Shown here: piece after piece, positions 7,293 through 11,041 of the stretch
How positions within the stretch are numbered: position 1 is the stretch's first letter
Layout: each line of letters starts with the position of its first letter
Source of the DNA: Halobacterium sp. DL1
Lineage (GTDB): Archaea; Halobacteriota; Halobacteria; Halobacteriales; Halobacteriaceae
DNA: 64,000 nt
Assembly (NCBI GenBank): GCA_000230955.3
Contig: CP007060.1
Location: 868,001-932,000 of the forward strand
Reading direction: 5' to 3'
Translations under genes and position numbers: made by a program
Notes under the pieces: generated by a model
Databases searched by the model: none
Seen by the model: the letters and a program-made list of their open reading frames with translations, nothing else
Told to the model about the DNA's origin: nothing

Positions 7293-8111
7293 ATGGAGAA
7301 GGTCGCGCTCATCACTGGTTGTTCCTCGGGAATCGGCGACGCGACGGCGCGTTCGCTGCTGAACGAGGAGTGGACGGTCGTCGCCACCGCGCGCGACACC
7401 GAGGACATCGCGGCGCTCGCGGAAGCCGGCTGCGACACGGCCGAACTCGACGTGACGAAGCCGGCCCAGTGCGAGAACGTCGTCGAGGACACCGTCGACC
7501 AGCACGGCCGGCTGGACTGCCTCGTGAACAACGCGGGGTACGCACAGCTCGGACCGCTGGAGGACGTGCCGACGCGGGCGCTCCACCGCCAGTTCGACGT
7601 GAATGTCTACGGGCCGCACCGACTCGTCCGGGCGGCGCTCCCGCACATGCGGAACCGCGGGGATGGGACCATCGTGAACGTCTCCAGCGTCTCCGGCCGG
7701 GTCGCCACGCCGGGGATGGGCGCGTACAACGGCTCGAAGTTCGCCCTCGAGGGGATGAGCGACGCGCTCAGGAGTGAGGTGTCCCAGTTCGGCGTGGACG
7801 TCGCGCTCGTCGAACCCGGGCCGGTCGAAACGTCGTTCGGCGACCGCGCAGAGAGCCACGTCGACGACCTGGACCCGAGCGGCGTCTACGAGACCATCTA
7901 CGAGTTCTTCGAGGACGCGAGTGCGGTCAACGGCGCGGGCGCCGTGCCCCCCGAGCGCGTCGCCGAGGTCATCACCGAGGCGGCGGTCAGCCCGAACCCG
8001 AAGGCCCGCTATCCCGTCGCACGCGCTGGACGGTACGGCGTCGCCGCGCGATTCCTCCCCGACAGCTGGCGGGACGCGATGTACGGCCTCGCGCTGAAGT
8101 ACTTGCACTGA
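7293..8111 (+). CDS. SDR-family oxidoreductase
   Basis: The 272-residue protein is a classical short-chain dehydrogenase. It has the nucleotide-binding TGCSSGIG at residues 8-15, NNAG near 75, a catalytic serine in NVSSVSGR and the YNGSK catalytic Tyr/Lys pair near 147. Family members reduce or oxidise ketones and alcohols with NAD(P)H. The C-terminal 80 residues resemble the group that acts on lipids or retinoid-like substrates, but the substrate cannot be read from the sequence. The gene stands alone, with its own TATA-like box. Confidence 0.9.
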   Translation: MEKVALITGCSSGIGDATARSLLNEEWTVVATARDTEDIAALAEAGCDTAELDVTKPAQCENVVEDTVDQHGRLDCLVNNAGYAQLGPLEDVPTRALHRQFDVNVYGPHRLVRAALPHMRNRGDGTIVNVSSVSGRVATPGMGAYNGSKFALEGMSDALRSEVSQFGVDVALVEPGPVETSFGDRAESHVDDLDPSGVYETIYEFFEDASAVNGAGAVPPERVAEVITEAAVSPNPKARYPVARAGRYGVAARFLPDSWRDAMYGLALKYLH

Positions 8112-8187
8112 CCAGGCGGGCTGTTCGCCCCCGCTGACGGCAGTTCAGGGGTAACTGGTCACCGAACACCGTATCCGTGCAAACAGC

Positions 8188-8195
8188 GTTAATCG
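8188..8195 (+). promoter_or_regulatory. TATA-like box of the small lipoprotein gene
   Basis: GTTAATCG is centred 26-27 bases before the ATG at 8218. Confidence 0.45.
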
Positions 8196-8217
8196 GGCGG
8201 ATTCCGTCGAGTCGACC

Positions 8218-8406
8218 ATGCACCGAAGACGGCTGCTCGCAGCGACAGGGACCGTCGTCACAGCGCTGATCGCCGGCTGTGGGTCGCCCGGCGAGGAGGG
8301 TGAAGAGGGCGGAGAGGGCGACGGAGGCGGTGGTGAGGGCGAGTCCGGTGGAGAGGGCGGTGAGGACCGGGCCGAACCCGGCCAGTTCGGTCCGCGGGAC
8401 GCCTGA
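8218..8406 (+). CDS. Small Tat-exported lipoprotein, 62 aa
   Basis: The N-terminus MHRRRLLAATGTVVTALIAGC has twin arginines, a hydrophobic stretch and a lipobox (LIAGC), so the cysteine is the likely lipidated residue after Tat export. The mature part is only about 42 residues of Gly/Glu/Ser low complexity (GEEGGEGDGGGGEGESGGEG) with no folded domain. It may be a surface tether, or a decayed lipoprotein. The TATA-like box at correct spacing argues that it is expressed. Confidence 0.65.
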   Translation: MHRRRLLAATGTVVTALIAGCGSPGEEGEEGGEGDGGGGEGESGGEGGEDRAEPGQFGPRDA

Positions 8407-8520
8407 CAGCGACGAACGTTCTCACTTGTGTCCTGGCCTCGGTGCTTCGCAGTCGAGGCGTGGGGCCTCGTTCTGCAATAAATAACTGACCGCCGGGTTT
8501 CCCTGGCATCCGGGCCCGAC

Positions 8521-9879
8521 TTACGGGCCGGGCCGGGTCGGGAAGTCCTGGAGCGCGCTACTCGCGGCGCCGTAGGCGGGCGCGCCGCCGTGGATGTCGG
8601 TCGGCTGGCTCATCGGCTGCTGCTGTTCGAACCCCTGCCCCTGGGGTGGCTGGACCGAGCCCTGCTGCTGTGGTGGAATCTGAGACTGCTGCTGTGGCGG
8701 GAGGGAGCCCTGCTGCTCTGACGGAAAGGGTCGCTGCTGCTGTCGTGGCGGCGACTGCTGGTGCTGAGGAGATTGAAACGAACCCTGCTGTCGACGCGGC
8801 TGCTGGGAGCCCTGCTGCTGTCGAGGCTGTTGCTGCCGGGGCTGCTGCTGGCCCCGCTGCTGTGGCGGCATCGAGCCCTGGGACTGCTGCGGTGGCTGGC
8901 TCGGGCTCTGCTGCTGTGGCGGGAGCGAGCCCTGACCCTGCTGTGACTGACCGGAGCTCTGTTGCTGTGGCGGGAGCGGGCCCTGGGCCTGCTGTGGCGG
9001 AATCGAGCCCTGCTGCTGTGGCCGGAACGACTGCGGCTGCTGGCGGAACTGCCCGGAGCCACCCTGGAGCGAACCCTGGGTGGACTGGATGGGCTGCGCG
9101 ACGTCCTGGGGAAGACCCTGGGGTGCGCTGATCGGCGACGAGACGTCCTGCGGGATTCCCTGGGACTGCCCCATTCCCTGGGTCGGGGCCATCGCCTGGG
9201 GAGCACCTCCCTGGATCTCTATCTGTGACCTGCCGCTCTCGGAGCCCGACATCGACCGGCTGCCGCCCTGCTGGCCGCCGATCATCTGTCCCGCGCCCTG
9301 GGACTGCGACCCCTGGGGCTGGCTCATCGTCGCCGGAACCTGGTTCCGGACCTCGGTCTGGAGGTGGGACTCGAGGAAGTAGAGCTGGGTGTCCACCTCA
9401 CGAGAGATCTCGGTGAACAGGTCGGCGGTGTCCTCGTCGCCGAGCTTGGCTGCCTGTTCGATGGCGTCCCGGAGGAAACTCGCGTGGTGGCCGACGTGGT
9501 CGGCCAGCCACTCGATGTACTCGACGTCGTCGACAGCCTCGACCGGCGGCTCGGGGATGCGGCTGGTCTTCGCGGCGATGCGCGTCGTCCCCATCGCCTG
9601 CCCGCCGAGCGCGGTGACGCGTTCGGCGAGCAGGTCGACGTGCTCGGAGAGCGTCTCCGCGATCTCGTCGAACAGGAGGTGGAGCTGGAAGAACTCCCGG
9701 CCCTTGACGTTCCAGTGGGCGAACTTGGCCTGCGACTGCAGGTCGGTGGTGTCGGCGAGCGCCTGGTTCAGCGTCTGGATCACCGGCACGCGGCTCTCCT
9801 CGGAGAGGTTGACGGCTGTCGAGTAGAGGTTCGTTTGCGGCGCCTTGCTACGCGAATTTCGCTGTTGTTGTTGTGACAT
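8521..9879 (-). CDS. dps: Dps-type ferritin with a ~267-residue Gln/Pro/Ser-rich tail
   Basis: Residues 1 to about 183 are a complete Dps, the miniferritin that oxidises and stores iron and protects DNA. The ferroxidase residues are in place: His55 (AHWNVKG), His67, Asp71, then Asp82 and Glu86 in HVDLLAERVTALGG. From about 185 to 452 the protein turns into a low-complexity tail built on QGS(L/I/M)PPQQQ-like repeats with many QQQ runs. The tail has no Lys, scattered Arg and few acids, which is opposite to the acidic proteome around it. Usual Dps length is 160-185 residues. Start chosen at ATG 9879, preceded by GGAGGT; the upstream MPIEER frame is the leader. The tail is translated in frame with no break. 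Confidence 0.93.
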   Translation of the reverse strand: MSQQQQRNSRSKAPQTNLYSTAVNLSEESRVPVIQTLNQALADTTDLQSQAKFAHWNVKGREFFQLHLLFDEIAETLSEHVDLLAERVTALGGQAMGTTRIAAKTSRIPEPPVEAVDDVEYIEWLADHVGHHASFLRDAIEQAAKLGDEDTADLFTEISREVDTQLYFLESHLQTEVRNQVPATMSQPQGSQSQGAGQMIGGQQGGSRSMSGSESGRSQIEIQGGAPQAMAPTQGMGQSQGIPQDVSSPISAPQGLPQDVAQPIQSTQGSLQGGSGQFRQQPQSFRPQQQGSIPPQQAQGPLPPQQQSSGQSQQGQGSLPPQQQSPSQPPQQSQGSMPPQQRGQQQPRQQQPRQQQGSQQPRRQQGSFQSPQHQQSPPRQQQRPFPSEQQGSLPPQQQSQIPPQQQGSVQPPQGQGFEQQQPMSQPTDIHGGAPAYGAASSALQDFPTRPGP

Positions 9880-9896
9880 GTGGAGCAGACCTCCAC
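9880..9896 (-). promoter_or_regulatory. Shine-Dalgarno hairpin directly before the dps start codon
   Basis: In the minus-strand transcript, GTGGAG-GTCTG-CTCCAC forms a perfect 6-bp stem with a 5-base loop ending exactly at the ATG. The stem contains most of the Shine-Dalgarno motif GGAGGT (9894-9889), so folding would hide the ribosome-binding site. Confidence 0.55.
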
Positions 9897-9962
9897 GCTC
9901 TTCTATCGGCAATTGCAGGGAAAACTGTACTCGGCAAGTAGTTATCAGCTACTCCCCAGTCG

Positions 9963-10008
9963 GGAACTGCGTCGGTTAGCGTCCCCTTTCTGTTGACAGG
10001 AACTGCGT
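9963..10008. repeat. Direct repeat GGAACTGCGT upstream of dps
   Basis: The 10-mer GGAACTGCGT occurs at 9963-9972 and again at 9999-10008, 36 bases apart, in the gap between dps and the ATPase gene. It could be a paired operator for dps, whose start is 84 bases away; the second copy touches the stop region of the ATPase gene. Confidence 0.35.
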
Positions 10009-10009
10009 T

Positions 10010-11041
10010 CTAGTCGAGACAGGCGGCGACGACGCGCAGCGGGCGCTCGCCGCGGACCTCCTCGGCGAGCAGCGGGACGCGTTTCACGTCCGGCCCGCGG
10101 AAGAGGTCCTGGGCCCGCGCGAGCGCCCCCTGCTGGACCTCCCAGCGGCGGGCGCAGAACTCGCAGTCCTCGTGGTTCGGCGCGACGAACGCTTCCGTCG
10201 GGACGTCCGCGACGTCCGCCAGCGGCTCCATCACGCGGTTCACGACGACGGTGCCGACCGGCACGCCGTACTCGTCGAGGCGGGCGACGAGTCGCTCGGA
10301 CTCCATGACGCTCATCTCCTCGGGCACCAGCACCACGCGGAAGTCCGTGCGGGCGGGGTCCGTGAGGACTGCTCGCAGACGCTCGACGCGCTCCTTGACG
10401 GCGTCCAGGTCGCCGAAGCCCTGTTCGTCCTCTCCCTCGCCCTGCCCGAACATCCCCTTCAGGCCGTCCATCATCCCGCCCAGCCGCTCGCGGACCTGCA
10501 TCATCCGCCCGACCATCGAGTCCAGCACCTCCGGGAGTTCCAGCAGGCGGAGCGTGTGGCCGGTGGGCGCGGTGTCGACGACGACGCGGTCGAAGCGCTC
10601 GTCGTCCATGTACTCCAGCAGCAACTGCATCGCCGCTGCCTCGTCCGCGCCGGGCATCATCGCCGCGTCGTCGGCGCTGTCGCCCGCTGTCCCGCCGAGG
10701 AGCGCGTCCATCCCGCCGGCGAAGCCGCCGTCCTGCCCGAACATCCCCGCCTGCGAGAGCGCGTCGTCCGGGTCTATCTCGACCGCCCACAGCGGCCTGT
10801 CGTCGAACACCTGCGCGGGTCGGGCCGGCACCTCGACGCCGAGCGTGTCCGACAGCGAGTGCGCGGGGTCGGTGGAGACGACCAGAGTCGCCGTCCCTTC
10901 GTTCGCGCTGGCGAGCGCCGTCGCCGCCGCCATCGTCGTCTTCCCGACGCCGCCCTTCCCGCCGTACAGCACGTACTCCGCGGTGCCCGCAGTCACGCCG
11001 GGGTCGAGCGAGTCGACCGCCTCGACCTCGAGTTCGTCCAT
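10010..11041 (-). CDS. Get3/ArsA-like ATPase (TRC40 family)
   Basis: The 343-residue protein has the deviant Walker A loop GGKGGVGKTT (about residues 27-36), switch regions STDPAHSLSD and VVDTAPTGHTLRLLELP, and a CEFC pair near residue 300 that matches the zinc-binding cysteines of Get3 dimers. Get3 targets tail-anchored membrane proteins; ArsA drives arsenite export. Lack of an arsB/arsD neighbourhood and the CxxC pair favour the Get3-like role. The Met/Gly-rich insert (about 165-215: GGMMDGLKGMFGQGEGEDE) could be the client-binding part. Start is ATG 11041. Confidence 0.9.
   Translation of the reverse strand: MDELEVEAVDSLDPGVTAGTAEYVLYGGKGGVGKTTMAAATALASANEGTATLVVSTDPAHSLSDTLGVEVPARPAQVFDDRPLWAVEIDPDDALSQAGMFGQDGGFAGGMDALLGGTAGDSADDAAMMPGADEAAAMQLLLEYMDDERFDRVVVDTAPTGHTLRLLELPEVLDSMVGRMMQVRERLGGMMDGLKGMFGQGEGEDEQGFGDLDAVKERVERLRAVLTDPARTDFRVVLVPEEMSVMESERLVARLDEYGVPVGTVVVNRVMEPLADVADVPTEAFVAPNHEDCEFCARRWEVQQGALARAQDLFRGPDVKRVPLLAEEVRGERPLRVVAACLD

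Follow-up and report, generated by a model that had tools for sequence, protein, structure and literature searches.

The window analysed here, a stretch of 64,000 nucleotides from Halobacterium sp. DL1 (contig CP007060.1), encodes a protein that is, judging by its sequence, a real mini-ferritin of the bacterial Dps type, in which a complete ferritin core is followed in frame by a 276-residue, lysine-free tail rich in glutamine and proline. The protein belongs to a clade of tailed haloarchaeal Dps proteins, and in this species it probably does the work of the native DpsA, which has been lost. Neither the bacterial-type identity nor the stand-in role was part of the original prediction for this DNA, which had described a Dps ferritin with a prion-like tail and had left the strand unstated; the gene lies on the minus strand as a complete frame running from 9879 to 8521 (452 aa). 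The features discussed below, in window coordinates, are the following.

8521..9879, minus strand: gene for the tailed Dps of bacterial type (452 aa), from the ATG at 9879 to a stop codon that ends at 8521, matching Pfam Ferritin and an NCBIfam equivalog
9352..9879, minus strand: folded Dps core, residues 1-176, delimited by pLDDT, a TM score of 0.94 and conserved ferroxidase residues
8524..9351, minus strand: Q/P/S/G-rich tail, predicted to be disordered, residues 177-452, delimited by composition and pLDDT
9052..9351, minus strand: proximal tail, residues 177-276, alignable with the congener (SQIEIQ-x-G-x-PQAMAP, ISAPQ-x-x-PQDVAQPI; dN/dS 0.43)
8599..9051, minus strand: distal repeat region, residues 277-427, with QGS(I/L/M)PPQQQ units and QPR segments (TRF, motif count)
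8524..8598, minus strand: C-terminal segment with the motif HGGAPAYGAASSALQDFPT, common to Halosimplex (HGGAPAHQAASTPLQGTPS) by a shuffle test
8218..8406, plus strand: small predicted lipoprotein, 62 aa (RRR and lipobox LIAGC, Gly/Glu-rich, ending EPGQFGPRDA), in the same insertion and kept in the congener
8112..10009, no strand: insertion flanked by the SDR gene (ends at 8111) and the ArsA gene (ends at 10010), from a comparison of congener junctions

A GGAGGT lies immediately 5' of the ATG of the tailed dps gene. Farther 5', at about 9910-9932 on the minus strand, a GTACAGTTTTCC-TGCAAT stretch is also present in the congener, and CTGTTTTCC is found again ahead of the Halosimplex dps gene; this shared upstream stretch is a candidate promoter or regulator site.

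The assignment of the core is supported by both profile and structural comparisons. The window protein matches Pfam Ferritin over residues 35-175 (2e-24) and passes the NCBIfam equivalog for bacterial Dps (NF006975; 178.6 bits, cut-off 114), whereas it stays below the cut-off for haloarchaeal DpsA (NF041388; 76.8 bits, cut-off 170), and in the tree it falls outside the DpsA branch. DpsA (1moj) nonetheless belongs to the same superfamily and probably has the same job. The closest solved proteins, by sequence and by fold, are those of Brucella (3ge4) and Agrobacterium (1o9r), on which the predicted model superposes as a four-helix-bundle Dps fold (TM 0.94 normalised to target length, rmsd 1.1-1.2), with an AlphaFold pLDDT of 95-99 over most of the core. 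All five ferroxidase residues that had been named for a complete Dps core (His55, His67, Asp71, Asp82 and Glu86) are at those positions, and H55, H67, D82 and E86 are invariant in an alignment of 40 sequences. From the conserved residues and the fold, it is reasonable to assume that the core would assemble as a dodecamer with ferroxidase activity, oxidising and storing iron. Core fold and ferroxidase residues are thus alike in the window protein and in bacterial Dps of the E. coli, Agrobacterium and Brucella type; the difference is at the C-terminus, where the sampled bacterial homologues end no more than 6 residues after the core and the window protein adds 276.

This tail (residues 177-452) consists of 30.4% Q, 15.6% P, 13.4% S and 13.0% G and contains 7 aromatic residues, one Tyr and one Asn. 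The expectation of no lysine, about a dozen arginines and few acids is borne out by the count (K 0, R 13, D 4 and E 4 among 276 residues), and the tail thereby differs from the core, which is acidic (net charge -18). A length of about 267 residues is correct when counted from residue 186 and becomes 276 from residue 177. Repeats built on QGS(L/I/M)PPQQQ are indeed present (QGS(I/L/M)PPQQ four times and PPQQ seven times in the window protein, with repeats also found by TRF), but the long Q runs are not, since the longest in the tail is 3 and QQQQ occurs at the N-terminus of the protein only. Judged on composition, the label 'prion-like' in the amyloid sense is therefore unsupported: with its proline content, near-absence of Asn and short Q runs, the tail is unlikely to behave as an amyloid. 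The glutamine content is beyond what chance would give: the best 100-aa stretch holds 44 Gln, whereas none of the 41 other coding-like ORFs of the window reaches more than 10. GC3 is higher than GC1 and GC2 in tail and core alike. Beyond about residue 185, AlphaFold gives a pLDDT of approx. 42-63 and no secondary structure, which is a proxy for disorder; composition and pLDDT together support a Dps cage whose Gln/Pro-rich tail is long, low in charge and disordered. When the tail was searched for as a mobile module in its own genome and in 382 genomes of the order, it matched only itself; such low-complexity sequence is poorly searchable, and this insensitive search missed even the tail of the congener.

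The trait is wider than the original prediction knew. Sampling of the family, the order, three other families, Halosimplex and a Halobaculum plasmid yielded 34 distinct haloarchaeal Dps proteins of bacterial type, of which 33 are tailed, with start codons of the relatives picked by hand. Their extensions are Gln/Gly/Pro/Ser-rich, lie on the N side, the C side or both, and total 43-293 residues (median 81 over all 34); many are short (43-80 residues), some are chiefly N-side, and among the shorter ones a few contain little Gln. The repeat units vary by lineage, QQPQSG, QQPGMGG and QGS(L/I/M)PPQQQ being among them. Across the 34 proteins, the extensions contain 9 Lys vs. 294 Arg in 3298 residues and the cores 93 Lys vs. 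310 Arg, with a median net charge of +2.5 and -15, respectively. The Halobaculum member carries the annotation of a 366-aa Dps in its public record. Among the papers searched, none dealt with Gln-rich haloarchaeal Dps. The 33 tailed proteins group as a single clade nested in bacterial Dps and separate from the branch of DpsA (support values 97/90; recovered in 96% of bootstrap trees), and the result was unchanged in a tree from which L005, L080 and L186, whose rows were misplaced or long, had been dropped. The untailed protein (L107) branches outside this clade, a joint clade not being rejected (p-AU 0.31). By contrast, none of the 78 bacterial homologues extends more than 6 residues beyond the core; these were selected for similarity of their cores and so do not represent a random sample. 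The best explanation of these sequence relationships is that the bacterial type of Dps came into haloarchaea by gene transfer and bears long disordered tails there. A phage origin was rejected, as phages give weak core matches and none with a tail. Among previously described proteins, Deinococcus grandis Dps has a 52-residue, Lys-bearing N-tail, termed one of the lengthiest among mini-ferritins, and a cage shape that responds to salt (PMC9103930); what it has in common with the window protein is a tail, flexible and disordered, attached to a Dps cage, whereas the window tail is C-terminal, 276 residues long, Lys-free and Gln/Pro-rich.

The genome of Halobacterium sp. DL1 contains one tailed Dps. 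In a congener (G018), the same locus encodes a protein whose core is 87% identical and whose tail, of 233 residues (Q 29.5%, P 15.4%), has its repeats arranged differently from those of the window tail. Because the congener shares frame, locus and tail composition, an assembly error or frameshift is ruled out; the fear that relatives might all end near residue 183 was likewise unfounded, the tail being clade-wide and the frame kept in the congener. Compared with this congener, dN/dS is 0.29 in the core, 0.43 in the proximal tail and 0.47 in the distal tail, and synonymous changes are in excess in all three, with Fisher p = 0.002 for the proximal tail and p = 0.0007 for the distal tail, where the values hang on an uncertain alignment; selection against amino-acid change is thus detectable in the tail. 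In the comparison with Halosimplex, the C-terminal pieces score 61 and 0 of 2000 shuffles score as high; for whole tails, 10 of 2000 shuffles do. It is hard to credit that the tail is a functionless product of neutral repeat expansion. CAG-rich repeats are prone to expand, and the repeat order does differ between the two species, yet 33 of 33 clade members are tailed despite different repeat units, no interrupted member was found among the sequences of the clade, and neutrality would not account for the synonymous excess in either part of the tail.

The same observations bear on whether the tail might be a solubility brush or spacer that separates or shields cages and for which little more than flexibility and weak charge would matter. 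Repeats that diverge fast while composition is conserved, together with a length that varies across the clade, are what such a brush would allow; however, haloarchaeal proteins are usually soluble through acidity, of which this tail is the opposite, and the C-terminal motif common to Halosimplex, as well as the detectable selection against amino-acid change, would not be needed. We therefore regard a brush as fairly unlikely, albeit as an alternative to be taken seriously.

Several congeners have convergent SDR and ArsA genes separated by approx. 13 bp; in the window species and G018, the tailed dps gene and the 62-aa lipoprotein gene sit between the two. DpsA is present in 11 of 13 genomes of the genus, and the two without it are exactly the two with tailed Dps. 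Elsewhere, 30 of 33 tailed genomes retain DpsA, so tailed Dps appears to be an addition in those lineages and a replacement in this genus. Since the two species are close kin, the exchange of DpsA may have happened only once. The DpsA of one congener matches Halobacterium salinarum 1moj (1.7e-89), and DpsA of congeners has 6-10 residues after the core and no Gln-rich sequence. The window species also encodes a separate archaeal DPS-like protein (L003), above the NCBIfam Arch_DPS cut-offs; a further ferritin-family protein is found in both tailed-Dps species (L003, L148) and is seemingly uncommon in the genus. A functional operon was rejected, as the neighbouring genes for endonuclease V, SDR and ArsA are also conserved in congeners without dps, which argues against a functional link between dps and its neighbours. 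The junction of SDR and ArsA appears to be a hotspot for insertions. In two further congeners it holds approx. 3 kb each (L179 2040-5130 and L184 6337-9436), the frames in the former presumably encoding a glycerate kinase and a gluconate permease. G018 has an extra secreted or lipoprotein-like gene between dps and ArsA (L152 8140-10284), which we take to resemble a glycosyl hydrolase and which is absent from the window.

The lipoprotein of the congener has a Gly/Thr-rich stretch where the window copy is Gly/Glu-rich, and an identical QFGPRDA end. Its co-insertion with tailed dps in both species, together with the preservation of an HGGAP...AAS..LQ motif between Halosimplex and this genus, could mean that a partner docks at the C-terminal motif and the proximal motifs of the tail, with the repeats as mere linker. 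This is very unlikely, however, given that none of the other loci examined showed the motif at the end of the lipoprotein and that the tail motif was not seen in the remaining clade members.

What, then, might the tail do? In a dodecamer, twelve 276-residue tails would point outwards, with a summed length exceeding the cage, and they would place low-charge, Lys-free, Arg-bearing, Gln/Pro/Gly/Ser-rich chains on an acidic core. Molar KCl would screen charge attraction and non-ionic contacts would take over; in several-molar KCl, the tails should lie close to or past the limit of their solubility and attract one another, so that cages would gather as reversible clusters or as a condensate, with or without the nucleoid. 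We infer that a ferroxidase cage whose outward, sticky, Lys-free and Arg-bearing tails cluster cages in molar KCl is a reading with a little less than an even chance of being right. Physical precedents exist: FUS condenses again once KCl exceeds 1.5 M, PR25, a Pro-Arg peptide, does so at 2.7 M KCl and Arg-Arg contacts turn attractive in high salt (PMC7889641), and near 3 M salt Arg-rich protamine condenses whereas poly-lysine does not (PMC9705477). Condensation by salting-out would fit these tails because they are Lys-free, Arg-bearing and Gln/Pro-rich on an acidic cage. The earlier idea of a gel or condensate is thus physically plausible at haloarchaeal KCl concentrations. FUS, protamine and PR25 are low-complexity Gln/Gly/Ser or Pro/Arg chains that serve as a physical analogy only; they are not homologous, and the window tail has one Tyr and fewer Arg. 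Indeed, 7 aromatics and 13 Arg per 276 residues are far fewer stickers than in FUS or PR25, which speaks against clustering, as does the fact that an inert brush is equally possible for Gln/Pro-rich polymers. Low pLDDT, moreover, is no proof of disorder at molar KCl, and mutation may account for some of the Lys loss because high G+C favours CAG->CGG/CCG over CAG->AAG.

A role of the tails as DNA-binding arms, in which Arg and amide side chains would grip DNA in high salt (cf. the Lys-rich N-tails of E. coli Dps), also has to be weighed. Tails are the usual DNA-binding parts in Dps proteins (PMC9103930). Within the clade, one family (f17) has Arg-rich extensions, for instance with MTQRQSRRRRQFRR at the beginning and RRYGG close to the end. 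In the window protein, however, the 13 Arg are spread across 276 residues, and the nearest solved fold is that of Agrobacterium Dps, a protein that protects DNA but does not bind it. DNA-binding arms are thus distinctly unlikely, and the case for DNA gluing by the tails is weaker than that for a condensate.

The clustering of cages at high salt can be extended to the clade as a whole, although in this broader form it is doubtful. The clade might have evolved its tails, rich in Gln, free of Lys and with Arg retained, as a condensation module that is specific to halophiles and tuned for demixing at molar KCl, and that would turn iron-storing cages into a protective cluster or gel, possibly round the nucleoid, by salting-out and not by the charge attraction of other Dps proteins. 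The behaviour of disordered proteins in a cytosol of several-molar KCl is little explored, and it is in this range that FUS-like and Arg-rich chains have been shown to condense. Because these cages differ chiefly by tail length and composition, high-salt condensation could be tested directly in living cells, where bacterial homologues without tails and the native DpsA would provide natural controls. In this genus, an acquired bacterial Dps is seen, in all probability, standing in for the native haloarchaeal one.
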